Source of the DNA: Halodesulfurarchaeum sp. HSR-GB
GTDB taxonomy: Archaea; Halobacteriota; Halobacteria; Halobacteriales; Halobacteriaceae
Assembly: GCF_031432215.1 (NCBI RefSeq)
Contig: NZ_JAVKGN010000001.1
Location: 744,001 to 808,000, forward strand
Length of the DNA stretch: 64,000 bases
Direction of reading: 5' to 3'
Made by a program: the position numbers and the translations under genes. Of the stretch, positions 33,715 through 64,000 are shown one piece after another; the stretch's first letter is position 1, and every line of letters begins with the position of its first letter. A model generated the notes under the pieces. It made no database searches. It was given only the letters and a program-made list of their open reading frames with translations, and had not been told where the DNA came from.

Positions 33715-34017
33715 ATGACAGACGACGACTCCAACCCCGCCATGTTTCCCTCGGCCTTTGCGAAGGCGATGGGACAGGCGGGCTCCGACGCGACGGAAAC
33801 CTCAGCACAGATGACCGAAGCCATGCTCGATGCGGCTCCCACGCCCGAGACCTTCCCGCTGGAGGCGGTCCAGGGGACGGCGACGTTCAAGACCCGGATC
33901 CAGAGCGGCGGCCGGATCAGCATTCCCGACGCCGAACGCGAGGTCCTCGACCTCGGCGAGGGTGACATCGTCCAGGCAGTGATCGTGCCGCTCAAGCGCA
34001 ACCAGGACAATGACTGA
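33715..34017 (+). CDS. phaR: AbrB-type regulator of PHA granules, PhaR-like
   Basis: The 100-aa protein has an N-terminal segment rich in Met/Ala that may contact granules or PhaP and a C-terminal AbrB/SpoVT-type swapped-hairpin DNA-binding domain (FKTRIQSGGRISIPDAEREVLDLGEGDIVQAVIVPL). In Haloferax mediterranei a PhaR of this architecture represses phaRP. A Shine-Dalgarno-like AGGTG (33705-33709) precedes the ATG by five bases. It overlaps phaP by eight bases. The assignment rests on architecture plus gene order. Confidence 0.75.
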   Translation: MTDDDSNPAMFPSAFAKAMGQAGSDATETSAQMTEAMLDAAPTPETFPLEAVQGTATFKTRIQSGGRISIPDAEREVLDLGEGDIVQAVIVPLKRNQDND

Positions 34018-34654
34018 GGACACCGATTCCACCGACGACTCGCCCTTCGGGGCGATGTTCGAGATGCAACGCGACGTGATCGAGCAGGGACAACAGTTCG
34101 CCGAGGAGTCGGCGAGTGCCCCGGCGGCGTTCGCCGCGGCCATGCGTTCGGCTGCAGTCGAGGGCACGGACGTCCACCGGCGGACCCTGGAGGTCGGCCA
34201 GCGAGCGATCGAGGACATCCTCGACGCCATCGAGGCAACCACGCCGACCGACGAGGCGGCCCTCGAAGACCTCCGTCAGGCCGTCGAGGGTGGCTTCGAC
34301 GACCTGCTCGCGGCCCAGGACGACGTGGTCGAGTCCGCCGATGAAGCGGCCGAAGCGGGTATCGAGGAGTACGAGGCGGCGGTCGACGGGGCGCTCAGCA
34401 GTCTCGATGCCCAGCTGGACCTCATCCTCGATGCGAACGACGACTTCGAGGCCCGGACGCTGGACGCGCTGGAAGTGGTCGTCGACCAGTACGAGTCCCT
34501 CCAGGCCGAGATCGAGGGCCAGTCCGGGGAGCTCTCCGAAGACATGCACGCGCAGCTCGATACGTTCGAGGACCGGCTGGCGACCCAGATCGAACAGTAC
34601 CGCTCGACGCTTGCGGACCTCGAATCGCGGTTCGACACGCTCCAGTCGGAGTGA
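34010..34654 (+). CDS. phaP: PHA granule phasin, PhaP-like
   Basis: The 214-aa acidic protein is almost entirely helical, with coiled-coil heptads from about residue 70 to the end (ALEDLRQAVEGGFDDLLAAQDD onward, given here in part) and no cysteine or membrane span. This matches the haloarchaeal phasin PhaP that coats polyhydroxyalkanoate granules. It overlaps the end of phaR by eight bases. The expected downstream partners phaE and phaC are not present; a lower-GC region starts right after the stop codon. An unrelated coiled-coil protein is a possible alternative. Confidence 0.72.
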   Translation: MTEDTDSTDDSPFGAMFEMQRDVIEQGQQFAEESASAPAAFAAAMRSAAVEGTDVHRRTLEVGQRAIEDILDAIEATTPTDEAALEDLRQAVEGGFDDLLAAQDDVVESADEAAEAGIEEYEAAVDGALSSLDAQLDLILDANDDFEARTLDALEVVVDQYESLQAEIEGQSGELSEDMHAQLDTFEDRLATQIEQYRSTLADLESRFDTLQSE

Positions 34655-34810
34655 CTACCCAGCCGAACGCCGTCCCGATATGTTTTGTCTCCGGTTTTTG
34701 AGACGGCGCGGACGCTGGCGCGAGAACGCGGGTCAGTGCGGATTCGGGGAATTCTTGGATCCTGTTCGGTTTGTATAGTGGGCTAGTCGAGTTGCCTCAT
34801 AGTTCGGCCA
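34655..34810. other. Gene-free junction after phaP
   Basis: No ORF is supported here. A T-rich stretch after a GC stem (CCGGTTTTTGAG, 34691-34702) may end phaRP transcription. The 14 bases GGTCAGTGCGGATT (34731-34744) differ by one base from the 3' part of the tRNA-Ile gene at 41207-41220 (minus-strand gene), so this could be a decayed attachment site at the left edge of the accessory stretch. The similarity is short. Confidence 0.3.
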
Positions 34811-35074
34811 TTACGCTTTGCTCATTTCCGCGGTTTCCGAATACGTGGACGTTGAGATTGTGTAGAGGCTTTGCCGCGCGTCCGGAACGTAGAGGTTTTT
34901 CTCGACGATATCCCCATCGATGAGTCGGCTGAGTGCGTCTCTGACTGTCCGCTGAGACAGCCGGGTTTCGTTCACGATTTGCTTTTGGGTTAACGCAGAG
35001 TTGTATTCGAGGACCTTTAAAACGAGTTTGGCACTCGGCGGAAAGTTCTGTATCTGGTTGTCGACATCTACCAT
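34811..35074 (-). CDS. Winged-helix DNA-binding protein, 87 aa
   Basis: A small MarR/ArsR-like wHTH protein: LVLKVLEYNSALTQKQIVNETRLSQRTVRDALSRLIDGDIV spans most of the domain (helices 2-3 in TQKQIVNETRLSQRTV), followed by a wing (YVPDARQSLYTIS). Short C-terminal tail. It is probably a local transcription regulator; the target is unknown. Base composition is lower in GC than the flanking housekeeping genes, as for the next several genes. It is transcribed in the same direction as the HTH_10 gene 77 bases upstream. Confidence 0.75.
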   Translation of the reverse strand: MVDVDNQIQNFPPSAKLVLKVLEYNSALTQKQIVNETRLSQRTVRDALSRLIDGDIVEKNLYVPDARQSLYTISTSTYSETAEMSKA

Positions 35075-35151
35075 TTGAATACAGTCACCGTGATTCAGCT
35101 GTTGCTTTTCTTTCCCTGCCTGTAACAGTTTGACTTGGCTACCAAAGGGAT

Positions 35152-35826
35152 TTATTCGTCCGACTCCGCCGCCTGCTGGAGTTCCTCGATCATTACGGAG
35201 TGGGCGAGGAGCGTGGACGTTCCCCGGCGGAGACGCTCCGTGACAGCCTGATCCGAGATGCCAAGCCTGTTGCCCAGTTCCTTGGTGGAAATTTGGCGGG
35301 GTATGTCGAAGTACCCTTCCCTGAAAGCCAACATGAGTGCCTCCCGTTGTGGGACCGACAGTCCATACCAGGGTCCCGTGTCTGGTTTCGTCGGGTTGTA
35401 GATCCGGATCACCTCCATCTCGATATCCGCGCTCAAACAGTAGTCTTGAAAATCAGAAAGGGCATCGTGACTCGGGAACCGAAGTTCGAACCGCCAGTTG
35501 TGCCCCGTCCCTGTCGCTTCGAGCAGCTGTGCACCCCCCTCTCGAATCCCCTTGATTACAAGGTCCCGTGACGCTCGCCACTCGAGGGCATAGAGCGTTC
35601 GGTCATCGTGAACTTCCTGAACCTCGAAACTCTCGACGGATGGGTGGTTTTTGACCGCGGCCTCGAACCCGTCCCGATGGGGCTCGTAAATCCAAATATA
35701 TGGAATGATGGATTCGCCCAGCGGAACCATCGATTCCACTTCCACTACGACACCATCCTCCACACGCAGAATCCGACCCAGTTCGAAAGACTCTGGAGAA
35801 AAGTCAATGTCTGCAATTACTGACAT
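35152..35826 (-). CDS. Bacterio-opsin activator-type HTH regulator (HTH_10)
   Basis: The 224-aa protein has an N-terminal sensor-like domain typical of haloarchaeal HTH_10 proteins (MSVIADIDFSPESFELGRIL). It ends with a C-terminal HTH_10 domain, LSVPQREALMLAFREGYFDIP, then ISTKELGNRLGISDQAVTERLRRG, which binds DNA. The ATG at 35824-35826 is chosen over an upstream in-frame start because it gives the family N-terminus. The promoter contains palindromes (35852-35865 and 35897-35906) that may be self-binding sites. It could regulate the nearby histidine kinase region; this is an inference from position only. Confidence 0.88.
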   Translation of the reverse strand: MSVIADIDFSPESFELGRILRVEDGVVVEVESMVPLGESIIPYIWIYEPHRDGFEAAVKNHPSVESFEVQEVHDDRTLYALEWRASRDLVIKGIREGGAQLLEATGTGHNWRFELRFPSHDALSDFQDYCLSADIEMEVIRIYNPTKPDTGPWYGLSVPQREALMLAFREGYFDIPRQISTKELGNRLGISDQAVTERLRRGTSTLLAHSVMIEELQQAAESDE

Positions 35827-35851
35827 CTGTTTCAAAGTATACTCTCCATAC

Positions 35852-35865
35852 AGGTATAGATACCT
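35852..35865. promoter_or_regulatory. Palindrome in the HTH_10 promoter
   Basis: AGGTATAGATACCT has perfect six-base arms around AG and lies 26-39 bases upstream of the HTH_10 start, at the TATA position. A related palindrome TGGTATACCA occurs at 35897-35906, so GGTAT/ATACC half-sites appear twice. Confidence 0.45.
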
Positions 35866-36055
35866 CACTATGACTGGCTACAGAAGTGGTAGAGCTTGGT
35901 ATACCAGGCTTTCCAGCAGCCTTTACCCGCTGGAATTGGTAACAGAAGATACGGACAGGTAACACAACCGGATCCGTCACCCAAATCAGCACGAGATTCG
36001 GTGGCCACTGGCAAGTGACTGTGACTAGCAGACCGGTGCCCTCTCCAATACTATC

Positions 36056-36247
36056 ATGGACGAAAATTCGACGAGTCATGACGGCATCTCCACGGCCGAG
36101 GAGCTCGAAGAATCGTTGGTTCAACTGCTTCGATCAGCCTACGAGAACGGCGTGAGCATCGAAACAAGCTATGAGATTCGGAACGGACAAGCGGTGCCAG
36201 ACTGGGAAGTCCTGATCCACAAACTCGCCAAAAAGGGGCCTGACTAA
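36056..36247 (+). CDS. Small acidic protein, 63 aa, unknown
   Basis: The product has one predicted helix (AEELEESLVQLLRSAYENGVSIE) followed by a short beta-like region and a tryptophan-containing C-terminus (AVPDWEVLIHKLAK). Short haloarchaeal proteins of this shape are common and uncharacterised; I give no function. It is divergent from the HTH_10 gene and lies about 110 bases before the histidine kinase in the same direction. Its low GC fits the accessory stretch. Confidence 0.6.
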   Translation: MDENSTSHDGISTAEELEESLVQLLRSAYENGVSIETSYEIRNGQAVPDWEVLIHKLAKKGPD

Positions 36248-36353
36248 ATCAATTCGCTTACACTTTTTAGTAGCACAACCGCCAACAATGGTGGCTTATA
36301 GTCCCTGATTTACCAACCCGTTCTGACTTGACCATCCATGCGTAAAATCGTGT

Positions 36354-38954
36354 ATGACTGGTTTCCCTTCCGATCAAGCAAAAGCGGATCGTAGCGACGA
36401 GTCGGTAAGGGCCATCGAATCGATTGTACAAGAATTGAATGACGTCTTCCGACAAAACACCCCTTTCGAGGAAAAAGCCAGACAGGCTCTCGAACTGGGT
36501 AGAGACTTTCTGTCAGTAGATAACGGCCATCTCACTCGGATTGACGAAGAAACCGATCACTGGGAAACGCTCGTCAGTACCGATTCACCTGAAGGATCGT
36601 TTCCTCCAGGCCTCGAACTTGATCTTGGCAGCACTTACTGCCGCCGAATAGTCGGGCCCCAATCCCAATTAAGTCTCAGTGATGCCCCAAACCAGGGCTG
36701 GGAAGATGACCCGGCATTCGAAACCCACGGCATCCATTGCTATCTCGGCACTCCAATCGTCCTCGATGGGGAGACATATGGCACCGTTTGTTTCGTTTCT
36801 GTAGAGTCCCGGAGCAAACCATTTGGGAACGGGGAGAAACTAGTCGCCGAACTCATCTCGCACATGCTCGGACGGGAACTCGAAACCGAGCAACACGAGT
36901 CCCAATTGATGAAACAGACGAATCTCAGTCTCGTCCTCAATCGAGTGCTCAGACACAATTTGCGGAACGAGTTGGCCATCATACGTGGCTACACGCAAAT
37001 GATGTCGGAGTCCTTGACGGATTCCCAGTATGGACAGCGGGCACTGCAGAGTATTGACAAACTCATCCGCTTGAGCCAAAAGGCCAGGGAACTCGACGAG
37101 ATCGTTGCAAGCGACGCGGAACGCGATCAGTCGGACATTCGGGGTATCATTGGCGATGTTATTGCGAGTTTTCGCACGGAATTTCCTTCGGCATCGATTT
37201 CTATCGACACCGATGAGGACGTTTTGGTGGCTGTTTTCCCGAGTTTCAAACGGGCAATGCGGGAACTGATCGAGAATGCCGTCAAACACAGCGGCGAGCA
37301 CGCTACTATCGAAATATCTATCGAATCGGTTCCGAACGCCATCGAGGTTCGGATTGCCGACGATGGCCCGGGCCTCGGCAGTCAAGAAATCGAGGTACTT
37401 CGCTCCGGGTCGGAAACACCACTGATGCATGGGAGTGGTCTGGGACTGTGGCTCGCTCACTGGATCGTATCTAGCCACGATGGATCGGTCGATGCAACAG
37501 TCACTGATGCGGGAACGACGCTGACGGTGACGGTTCCTCGGATGCCGGTGGGTGAGAGCGAACAGCCAATACGGGACCTCGTTCGGGCCCGGGACCAGTA
37601 TAAAGCCGCCTTCGAAGAGGCTGGAGATGCTATAACAATTGCCGACGACCAGGCCCGCATACTCGATGTAAACAAGGAAGCGGCCAGGCTCTATGGCCTG
37701 GATAGAAAGCAGTTGATGGGTCGGTCGATGAAAGATTTCCTGCCGGACGATTTCGATTTCGAAGCCGAATGGGGCGAGATCCAGGCGGCCAAAATGAAAC
37801 GCGATGAGATGCAGATCGCCAGTGCGGACGGGGGAGTAAATCCAGTCGAATATACCGCAAAAACCGATTTCGTCCCCGGACAACATCTCATCGCGAGCCG
37901 GGATGTAACCGACCGGAAAGAGCACGAACGGGAGGTTTCCGCATTGAAGGAGCGGTATCAAGCGTTGCTCGAAGAGATCCCGGCCCCGGTCATCGTCACG
38001 GATATCGAGAGCGACGAAATTATCGAAACCAACTCGGCTTTCGATACGTTACTTGGTACATCCAAGGATCAACTCCTTGGTGAACGACTAGAAGTCTTGT
38101 TCCCTGAAGGCGATGGTGACCGATATCGGGCGGTGTTTGGCCCTCCCTACGGAGATGCAGAAACGATCACTCGACTCCCGAATGGCTCGCCACCGACACT
38201 AATAACGGCCGACGGGAAGGCCATCCCCGTGGAGGTACGCATCGGGACCGTTGAACTCGCAAAACGAGAAGTCATGGTGGGCTTGTTCCGAACTGTATCC
38301 GACCTGAATGCCGGGAAGGACTCACTTCAGGACCGGAACGAACAACTGGAGTTATTTGCAAGCGTGGTCTCCCACGACCTTCGTAACCCGTTGAATGTAG
38401 CGAGTGGACGCTTGGAGTTGGCTATGGATGACTGTGATAGCAAGCACCTCGAGACGATTGAAGACGCCCACAGGCGAATGGAACGGTTGATCGCTGATCT
38501 CCTCGTTCTGGCCCGCCAGGGTGAGACTGTCGCTGATCCCGAACCGGTTGCCCTTGCCGACCTGGTGAATGGTTGTTGGAGGAACGTGGATACTGAAGCG
38601 GCCACTCTTGTCGCGGACGTGGATCGCACGATTCGAGCGGATGCCAGCCGGGTGAAACAGATATTCGAGAACCTGTTCAGAAACGCTGTGGAACAGGGAA
38701 GCGGTGAGGTGACGGTGACAGCCGGCGGGTTAGGAGGGGGATTTTACGTAGAAGATGACGGTCCAGGAATCCCAAAATCCGAGCGGGAAGTTGTATTCGA
38801 GGCAGGCTATTCAACTAGGGAGGGGGGATCTGGGTTTGGCCTGAACATCGTCAAGGAGATCGTTGAGGCACACGATTGGGAGATACAGGTCACTGAAGGA
38901 TCTACGGGCGGTGCGAGGTTCGAGATAACCGGCATCGAGTTCGCTGTCGAATAG
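36354..38954 (+). CDS. Hybrid-length sensor histidine kinase with two kinase cores
   Basis: The 866-aa soluble protein contains, in order, a GAF-like domain (about 24-178), then a first kinase core with H-box RHNLRNEL (His near 201). The first ATPase has N-box RELIENAVKHSGEH, G1 IADDGPGLG and G2 GSGLGLWLAHWI. Next come two PAS domains (about 410-525 and 535-650). A second complete core follows with H-box VSHDLRNPL (His near 674), N-box FENLFRNAVEQG, G1 VEDDGPGIP and G2 GGSGFGLNIVKEI. No membrane helices are visible. Two complete HisKA-HATPase modules in one chain are unusual and may come from fusion of two kinases. No response regulator is adjacent. Confidence 0.9.
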   Translation: MTGFPSDQAKADRSDESVRAIESIVQELNDVFRQNTPFEEKARQALELGRDFLSVDNGHLTRIDEETDHWETLVSTDSPEGSFPPGLELDLGSTYCRRIVGPQSQLSLSDAPNQGWEDDPAFETHGIHCYLGTPIVLDGETYGTVCFVSVESRSKPFGNGEKLVAELISHMLGRELETEQHESQLMKQTNLSLVLNRVLRHNLRNELAIIRGYTQMMSESLTDSQYGQRALQSIDKLIRLSQKARELDEIVASDAERDQSDIRGIIGDVIASFRTEFPSASISIDTDEDVLVAVFPSFKRAMRELIENAVKHSGEHATIEISIESVPNAIEVRIADDGPGLGSQEIEVLRSGSETPLMHGSGLGLWLAHWIVSSHDGSVDATVTDAGTTLTVTVPRMPVGESEQPIRDLVRARDQYKAAFEEAGDAITIADDQARILDVNKEAARLYGLDRKQLMGRSMKDFLPDDFDFEAEWGEIQAAKMKRDEMQIASADGGVNPVEYTAKTDFVPGQHLIASRDVTDRKEHEREVSALKERYQALLEEIPAPVIVTDIESDEIIETNSAFDTLLGTSKDQLLGERLEVLFPEGDGDRYRAVFGPPYGDAETITRLPNGSPPTLITADGKAIPVEVRIGTVELAKREVMVGLFRTVSDLNAGKDSLQDRNEQLELFASVVSHDLRNPLNVASGRLELAMDDCDSKHLETIEDAHRRMERLIADLLVLARQGETVADPEPVALADLVNGCWRNVDTEAATLVADVDRTIRADASRVKQIFENLFRNAVEQGSGEVTVTAGGLGGGFYVEDDGPGIPKSEREVVFEAGYSTREGGSGFGLNIVKEIVEAHDWEIQVTEGSTGGARFEITGIEFAVE

Positions 38955-39145
38955 ACGGTCCGTGTTCAGATAGCAAACGGTGGAAAAGCGGTCGGTCGGC
39001 GCCCTTCAGCCGGGACTGAATGAGCCCGCAAACGACTCGAATCCCGACAAGACCGTTTAATCCGACTGAATTGGGCGGAAATCGGCTATGCGATCTTCCC
39101 GGTTCATACGGCTGGATACGCTACGGAATTTACGAACCTACCGTC

Positions 39146-40186
39146 ATGATACCAGTAAAATTCGGAACAGTAGCTGCCCTCGTGGTTTCGGTCCTCGTGA
39201 TTGCCTCCGGCGCGACCGCCGCCATGGCGACACAGGGCTCGGGGCCACTCGGGGCCATGGACAACGGCGAACCGGGACCCGCGGACGAGATTGAAACAGA
39301 TGGTGCAATCAACATCACCGTCGACGGAACCGTCACACCCGGTGAGACAGTCACTCTCACCGCCAGCCTGGACGGCGAACCGGTCCGGTTCGCCGCCGTG
39401 AGTGTCAACGGCGAGGACACGTACGAGACCGACGAGAACGGTTCTGTCGCCGTCACGGTCCCGGACGATGATGAATTCGAGGTCGAGGTCGAAGCCGAAC
39501 GGGACGGCGAACTCGAAATCCCACTCGCGGATGACGACACGGAAGCGGACGAAGACGATGAGGACATGGACGAGAGTGACGAGGACGAGTCACTCGACCT
39601 CGGCGTGGATGGGAACGTCAGCGCGGGCGAGAACGTCACCATCACCGCCACTCACGCGGAATACCCGGTCGCTGGCGCAGCCGTGTCCGTCAACGGCGAG
39701 CACGTCGGTGCGACCGATTCCACCGGGACCATCACGGTGACCGTCCCCGATGCGGACGAGTTCGAAGTCGAAGTCGAATACGAGGCGGCGGGTGAGCTCG
39801 AAATCCCACTCGAATCGGCCGAGGAAGACGATGACACGGACGCGGAGGGGCAGATCGACCTGGTCGTCGAAGGCACGCTCGAACCGGGTGCGAACCTGTC
39901 CGTCACCGCGCTGGACGCCGACGGTAACGCTATCAGCAACGCCACGGTGTCCGTCAACGACGAACCCGTCGGTGAAACCGGCGAAAACGGGACGCTGACC
40001 GTGACCGTTCCTGCCGATGACGAACTCGAAATCGAAGTCACCCACGAGGATCGGGACGGGGAGCTATCCGTCGACTTCGAGGACGCGGCGGACGAACACG
40101 ATCACGACGACGAAGATGACGAGTACGAGGAGGACGGTGACGAAGAAGCGGACGATGACGACGATGCTGCGGGCTCCGAGGACTAA
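39146..40186 (+). CDS. Secreted acidic protein with three Ig-like repeats
   Basis: The 346-aa protein has a Sec-type signal (hydrophobic residues 8-27, ending SGATAAMA) and then three repeats of about 73 residues (55-127, 150-222, 237-311). Each follows the pattern V-[DE]-G-x-[VL]-x-[PA]-G, then VSVN[GD]E, G-[ST]-[LIV]-T-V-T-V-P and ExEVE. Acidic linkers of Asp/Glu separate them and an acidic His-containing tail (312-346) ends the protein. No membrane anchor or sorting motif is seen at the C-terminus. The repeats resemble carboxypeptidase-regulatory/Ig-like folds. It is probably a surface or extracellular protein, perhaps Ca2+ binding. I use ATG 39146, since the upstream frame lacks signal features. 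Confidence 0.8.
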   Translation: MIPVKFGTVAALVVSVLVIASGATAAMATQGSGPLGAMDNGEPGPADEIETDGAINITVDGTVTPGETVTLTASLDGEPVRFAAVSVNGEDTYETDENGSVAVTVPDDDEFEVEVEAERDGELEIPLADDDTEADEDDEDMDESDEDESLDLGVDGNVSAGENVTITATHAEYPVAGAAVSVNGEHVGATDSTGTITVTVPDADEFEVEVEYEAAGELEIPLESAEEDDDTDAEGQIDLVVEGTLEPGANLSVTALDADGNAISNATVSVNDEPVGETGENGTLTVTVPADDELEIEVTHEDRDGELSVDFEDAADEHDHDDEDDEYEEDGDEEADDDDDAAGSED

Positions 40187-63620: not shown

Positions 63621-64000
63621 ATGGCCGAGCCGAGTCCGGAAATCGTCGTGCTTCACGTCGACGACGATCCGAATTTCGGCTCACTGCTTCGCGAGGCGCT
63701 GGAAGCCGCGGACGATCGGTTCAGGATCGAAACCGCTGTCGACGGGGCTGAAGCTCTCGCTATGCTCGAGGACGCGCAGTTCGATTGTGTCGTGAGCGAC
63801 TACAAACTGTCAGGGATGGACGGGCTCGAACTCCTGGCGGCCGTCCGCGAGTTGGATCCGGATCTCCCATTCCTTCTCTTTACGGGGAAAGGTTCGGAAG
63901 TCGTCGCCAGCGAAGCGATCCGGGCCGGCGTCACCGACTACCTGAAAAAACGGCCCGGCGAGAAGCGGTTCTCGCTTTTGGCCAATCGCATCCGAAACGC
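63621..64000 (+). CDS. Response regulator receiver protein, C-terminus outside window
   Basis: The gene runs off the end, so it has no stop codon here. The visible 126 residues form a CheY-like receiver domain: HVDDDPNFGSLLREAL with the acidic pocket, phosphorylatable aspartate in CVVSDYKLSGMDGLELL, the Thr in LLFTGKG, and the lysine in YLKKRPGE. Haloarchaeal proteins starting this way often continue with PAS domains and a histidine kinase or HTH output, so this is probably the receiver half of a larger protein. Confidence 0.9.
   Translation, partial: MAEPSPEIVVLHVDDDPNFGSLLREALEAADDRFRIETAVDGAEALAMLEDAQFDCVVSDYKLSGMDGLELLAAVRELDPDLPFLLFTGKGSEVVASEAIRAGVTDYLKKRPGEKRFSLLANRIRN

Follow-up and report, generated by a model that had tools for sequence, protein, structure and literature searches.

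Two histidine kinase cores of different lineages in one receiver-free haloarchaeal protein, and the PAS domains that may have joined them

In two-component systems a kinase ordinarily has a single sensor core that works with receivers. A gene of the haloarchaeon Halodesulfurarchaeum sp. HSR-GB that encodes two kinase cores in one chain raises the questions of how such a protein arose and how its cores might work together. The gene lies in a 64,000-nucleotide stretch of the genome (contig NZ_JAVKGN010000001.1, positions 744,001 to 808,000), the whole of which is called the window here. An initial annotation, made from the sequence, had described a histidine kinase with two complete catalytic cores and no receiver between them, had considered the arrangement rare, and had taken it to suggest a fusion of two genes with cross-phosphorylation or dual output.

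Domain architecture and catalytic motifs

Pfam searches on slices of the protein recovered, in a single frame, the order GAF, HK1, PAS, PAS, HK2 (Table 1), in agreement with the two cores around H201 and H674 that were first annotated. Core 2 has the traits of a HisKA/HATPase_c kinase: a HisKA domain (residues 665-723, 55.6 bits) with its phosphoacceptor histidine H674 in the motif SHDLRNPL, an HATPase_c domain scoring 74.8 bits, and the N (N777), G1 (from 800), F (VFE at 814) and G2 (from 825) boxes. Core 1 has an HATPase_c domain above the Pfam cut-off (62.4 bits), a phosphoacceptor histidine, H201, in the motif LRHNLRNEL of a helical hairpin predicted with modest confidence, and the boxes N (N308), G1 (from 336) and G2 (from 360); two kinase traits are missing from it, since its HisKA match (residues 197-247) scores below the Pfam cut-off (23.7 vs 26.9 bits) and no F box was recognised by eye. 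Residues were placed by eye within each motif, and the completeness claimed for both cores holds for H, N, G1 and G2, the boxes that the initial annotation had named.

Table 1. Coordinates of the tandem kinase gene, its domains and associated features (positions of the window unless a locus is named)
Feature	Coordinates	Strand	Evidence
Tandem histidine kinase gene, 866 aa	36354..38954	+	ATG start, single frame without internal stop
GAF domain, residues 39-175	36468..36878	+	Pfam PF01590, 36.3 bits
Kinase core 1 (HK1), helical domain and HATPase_c 298-396	36942..37541	+	H201 at 36954-36956
PAS1, residues ~415-522	37596..37919	+	Pfam on slices
PAS2, residues ~533-637	37950..38264	+	Pfam on slices
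Kinase core 2 (HK2), HisKA and HATPase_c 763-859	38346..38930	+	H674 at 38373-38375
Divergent BAT and HTH_10 regulator, 238 aa	35152..35868	-	domain matches; ~50% homologues elsewhere
RsbR-RsbS-RsbT-RsbX module directly upstream of tandem kinase	L002:73-7279; L001:1948-8638; L065:4233-10582		

The AlphaFold2 model of residues 1-530 (21 alignment rows, mean pLDDT 79) places a hairpin of two helices (159-220 and 224-252) ahead of an ATPase fold and then a PAS fold, with pLDDT around H201 mostly only 44-68. Foldseek aligned the HK1 model with solved histidine kinase cores, including ZraS (9jfj, TMt 0.78), CpxA, HK853 and 6lgq. The full-length model was weaker (mean pLDDT 71), and its HK2 helices were poor (35-46) where the alignment is shallow; at the sequence level, core 2 does match solved kinases (3a0r, E 2.9e-18).

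Response_reg had no match anywhere in the window protein at E<=1, which bears out the annotated absence of a receiver between the cores, where the linker consists of the two PAS domains, and sets the protein apart from hybrid histidine kinases. The protein is acidic (D+E 18% vs K+R 10%), and its hydropathy maximum of 0.86 over 19 residues suggests no membrane span.

Identity between the two cores is only about 28%, while each shares 50-65% with members of a separate kinase family; an internal duplication was rejected on these grounds. HK1 and HK2 are different kinase lineages. The motif HN(L/I/V)RN occurs in 38/38 rows of the haloarchaeal HK1 family and HD(L/I)RN in 45/46 rows of the HK2 family, one row having no match to the motif expression; searches with DNA patterns gave lower bounds, Leu and Arg having other codons, and the HNLRN of the window itself escaped the HN pattern. 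A 21-row family alignment that includes single-kinase members shows no variation at the H, N, G1 and G2 residues of HK1, and all ten tandem or tandem-derived rows have retained these boxes in HK1 with minor changes. In HK2, H, N and G1 are present in every row and G2 in all rows except two, a plasmid paralogue in which the second G2 Gly is replaced by Arg (L002) and a protein whose G2 is lost to the contig end (L076). An acidic residue after the phosphoacceptor histidine supports catalysis and phosphatase action. HK1 has Asn there and lacks a visible F box, either of which may modify its activity; it may serve chiefly as a kinase, with HK2, which has Asp, perhaps being bifunctional.

Distribution and genomic neighbourhood

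A GAF-HK1-PAS profile was searched against 392 genomes of the window's order, with three candidates scored per genome, such that multi-copy genomes are undercounted. Matches at E<=1e-70 were found in 70 genomes, and at E<=1e-150 there were 38 matches in 35 genomes. Six of the 38 strong matches are tandem proteins (the window's and those of G212, G021, G339, G351 and G230), the second core of the G230 protein being of a different type (28% to HK2); for 27 the frame is too short to accommodate a second kinase, and five are long and carry only PAS domains after HK1 (L066, L072, L073, L069 and L071). Two of these five (L069:5671-9087 and L071:8044-11460) are kinase-first proteins in which roughly six PAS domains come after GAF-HK1 and the C terminus has no output domain. 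Across 294 genomes of the phylum, the profile matched at E<=1e-70 in eight, every one from the window's order.

Weaker matches added two tandem paralogues on plasmids of the window's own genome (L001 and L002), a REC-GAF-HK1-PAS-HK protein truncated at a contig end (L076, G015), a tandem copy on a Halanaeroarchaeum HSR-CO plasmid that is split by two in-frame stops (L065), and a tandem copy frameshifted in core 1 in an incomplete assembly (L142, G019). The two stops in L065 (9959-9970) lie three codons apart and sever HK2, the rest of which is open, a recent split or decay. No receiver was found in the tandem relatives L067, L068, L074, L075 and L001, and the receiver of L076 is N-terminal. 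G339, from another family of the order, encodes an 855-aa protein (L074) with the same GAF-HK1-PAS-PAS-HK2 order. With this homologue and the open frame in the window, the frameshift or assembly error between the halves that might have undone the annotation did not appear, and an assembly artefact is judged unlikely.

A census of HATPase_c in five genomes, with E cut-offs that differed between genomes and same-frame pairs picked by eye, gave 34, 22, 34, 37 and 54 matches (181 in total), among which were four same-frame pairs, three in the window's genome and one in G021. None was seen in G027, G095 or G151. The window's genome is unusually rich in tandem kinases, and its congener G027 lacks them. 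These counts, together with the six tandems among 38 strong family matches, uphold the annotated rarity. A scan of genome contigs gave one distant locus only.

The gene of the divergent BAT/HTH_10 regulator starts 485 bases from the start of the kinase gene. The tandem kinases of G021 and G339 each have as a neighbour a homologue of this regulator (about 50% identity) that is the best BAT match of its genome (a second homologue scores nearly equal in G339); in G212 and G230 the best homologue is on a different contig. Linkage was found at 3/8 tandem loci with flanks vs 0/12 non-tandem loci (Fisher p=0.049), and we regard it as suggestive only. The regulator itself lacks a receiver, and no receiver gene stands beside the window kinase. 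Between G021's BAT gene and its tandem kinase lies a GAF-like fragment (L068:6589-6948), perhaps the remnant of another GAF-HK1 gene. GC content is 54-59% over positions 34001-40000, which hold the BAT-kinase pair, vs 64-70% in most of the window; this is in keeping with acquisition of the kinase gene from elsewhere. An acidic protein that has a hydrophobic stretch in its N-terminal part and carries three Fn3_arc-like repeats is encoded just downstream of the kinase (39020-40186). The end of the window (63648-64000) holds the start of a REC-bearing HK2-type kinase, to which the plasmid HK2s are most closely related and whose 898-aa frame continues beyond the window.

Separate histories of the two halves

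The trees of the two cores place the window protein differently. Its HK1 (38 rows) clusters with L001, L002 and L065 (support 94/96), and its HK2 (46 rows) clusters with L003, a single-kinase REC-PAS-HK2 protein of the C2 plasmid (97/85, starred). The plasmid HK2s cluster with L004, another REC-bearing kinase (98/93), such that the closest relatives of the tandem HK2s in the window's genome are the REC-bearing HK2 proteins L003 and L004. AU tests rejected a grouping of the nine tandem HK2 rows (p=0.0009); a grouping of the window HK2 with the three stressosome-linked HK2s was not rejected (p=0.131), nor was a single clade of the seven tandem HK1s (p=0.21). A single fusion inherited by all members is accordingly rejected for HK2, and a single ancestral join with later replacement of HK2 is a possible history because of the latter two values. 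Synonymous divergence points to exchange as well: between L001 and L002 dS is 0.63 in HK1 and 1.96 in HK2, and between L002 and L065 it is 1.23 in HK1 and 0.60 in HK2, opposite contrasts which argue that the C-terminal kinase was exchanged.

The PAS domains are the likely place of exchange. The DNA of PAS1 (37596-37892; ORF bases 1243-1539) is 82.8% identical to that of the PAS ahead of HK2 in L001, the stretch holding HK1 and PAS1 (ORF bases 562-1575) matches the HK1-PAS part of L001 at 66% identity, and L001 and L068 have PAS1-like domains both after HK1 and immediately ahead of HK2. Since the PAS1 match bridges the HK1 and HK2 sides, PAS-to-PAS recombination is the likely route by which the kinases were joined and swapped, and haloarchaea seem to have reshuffled the tandem arrangement repeatedly by swaps of kinase modules. 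Unfused HK2-type kinases also adjoin single HK1-family genes, divergently in G063 and on the same strand in G300 and G340; the HK2-type neighbours in G063 and G300 are HisKA_7TM membrane kinases. The two-gene fusion first proposed is supported by the distinct lineages of the cores, their occurrence as separate proteins, the neighbouring genes in these three genomes and in G022, and the conflicting trees.

The plasmid relatives have a distinctive setting. L001, L002 and L065 lie directly after stressosome-like modules made up of RsbR (PAS-STAS), RsbS (STAS), RsbT (HATPase_c_2) and RsbX (SpoIIE) genes with overlapping ends. RsbT relatives were found in 10/392 genomes of the order, in 11 modules that all keep the R-S-T-X order, and a kinase gene directly follows eight of them: a tandem kinase in three (the split L065 included), a single HK1-like kinase in G353 and G075, a single HK2-like kinase in G168 and G366, and separate HK1-type and HK2-type genes in G022. 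No kinase gene was found after the modules of G320, G236 and G296 within 13-kb stretches. The single kinases are distant relatives, scoring 114-147 bits vs >300 for true members on the core models. That an HK1-HK2 pair, fused or unfused, stands behind the module argues that both work on one signal path. Six module-associated kinases share the N-terminal coil motif T..G...L..E(L/M), which is absent from the window protein and from seven other module-free family members checked. The window held no match to an R-S-T-X module, and its kinase has a GAF domain in place of the stressosome-associated input; the two marks of a stressosome-linked kinase, a place behind the module and the coil motif, are found in L001, L002 and L065 and in neither case in the window gene. 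In the modules of G353, G168, G366, G075, G320, G236, G296 and G022 (L118-L125), RsbX is extended at its N terminus by an additional RsbT-like domain, which sets them apart from the plasmid modules in the window's genome.

Modes of action and comparison with known systems

We favour, at a probability of roughly 0.45, a soluble two-input sensor kinase in which GAF-HK1-PAS has been joined to PAS-HK2 via their PAS domains and which converges on shared receivers. The protein would form one homodimer with two dimerising helical modules, the GAF domain would gate HK1 and the PAS pair HK2, and each core would phosphorylate its own histidine. Both cores would then feed a small shared pool of receivers, in which the two signals could be summed or gated. 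The divergent BAT/HTH_10 regulator may be involved at the target genes; since it has no receiver, it would be reached indirectly. The window's genome has 34 HATPase_c matches, not all of them kinases, vs eight receiver domains, four of which lie in long frames (756-1032 aa). Dual output, as the initial annotation suggested, is plausible, and separate outputs for each core appear less likely than convergence because the genome has only eight receiver domains.

HK1 might instead regulate HK2 rather than serve as a second phosphodonor, the GAF signal changing the conformation or dimer state of HK1 and being relayed to HK2 by way of the helix and PAS pair that connect the cores, such that HK1 takes the place of the N-terminal receiver of REC-PAS-HK2 kinases. 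GAF-HK1 does sit where L003 and L004, the proteins of this genome most closely related to the tandem HK2s, carry their receivers; the Asn after the histidine and the lack of a visible F box point the same way, as does a Foldseek match of the HK1 model to the regulatory kinase RetS, alongside matches to many active kinases. The H, N, G1 and G2 residues, invariant over 21 rows, fit catalysis better than a purely structural role, and we consider this reading unlikely. A broader proposal, that haloarchaea repeatedly build kinase-on-kinase sensors, is doubtful to about the same degree: a GAF- or PAS-gated kinase would occupy the receiver's slot before PAS-HK2 and control it directly in one chain without phosphotransfer to a receiver, with PAS domains as exchange joints and, on some replicons, a place behind a stressosome-like module.

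It is improbable that the fusion is a recent mosaic in which a single kinase is functionally needed and one core is being lost. The HK2 cut from the L065 frame by its two stops and the HK1 frameshift in G019 suggest that one core is dispensable or that copies are decaying, and the substituted G2 Gly in the L002 HK2, the patchiness of the family and the location in a low-GC insert fit as well. Weighing on the other side, members with HK1 and HK2 in frame otherwise retain the full motifs of both cores, and dN/dS (NG86) in the plasmid relatives with measurable dS is low, 0.16-0.26 for HK1 and 0.12-0.29 for HK2; in comparisons with the window protein, dS is mostly saturated or >1.8.

A split phosphorelay, in which HK1 would act on a separate receiver in trans that passes phosphate to HK2 or regulates it, is likewise improbable. 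Its model is TodS, arranged as PAS-HK1-REC-PAS-HK2, for which PMC4861429 describes a requirement for both histidines and the central aspartate; the window's genome has separate receivers, yet none lies in or beside the gene or was found in the tandem relatives listed above, apart from the N-terminal receiver of L076. Cross-phosphorylation, in which the ATPase domain of one core would act on the histidine of the other, is favoured only by proximity in one chain and is very improbable between cores of different lineages that are so dissimilar, ATPase domains usually matching their own helical domain.

A tandem kinase that lacks a receiver, has had its second core exchanged and keeps both catalytic sets offers a clean system in which to ask if one core can control another in cis. 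The locus also presents PAS domains as joints for kinase swapping and links haloarchaeal two-component signalling to stressosome-like modules. No paper on that link, nor on receiver-free tandem histidine kinases in haloarchaea, was found in the open-access literature.

RSTX modules are mentioned in "some archaeal species" in PMC9237108, which also treats kinases placed behind RsbRSTX (Vibrio VvD1). Two paralogues in the window's genome are likewise placed, whereas the window gene differs in lacking both the module and the N-terminal coil motif. Within the literature on tandem and double histidine kinases the nearest relevant studied case is TodS of Pseudomonas putida, which resembles the window protein in being soluble and carrying two sensor-kinase supradomains per chain and differs (PMC4861429) in having a receiver between its kinases and an internal phosphorelay. 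Single haloarchaeal GAF-HK1-(PAS)n kinases (L078, L079, L066 and L069) share the GAF-HK1-PAS half, with HK1 51-58% identical, but end after two to six PAS domains without the second kinase. The archaeal REC-(PAS)n kinases, named REC-HisK by Galperin et al. 2018 (PMC5847659), have the layout of the closest HK2 relatives in the window's genome, and where they carry an N-terminal receiver, the window protein carries a GAF domain and a whole second kinase instead.
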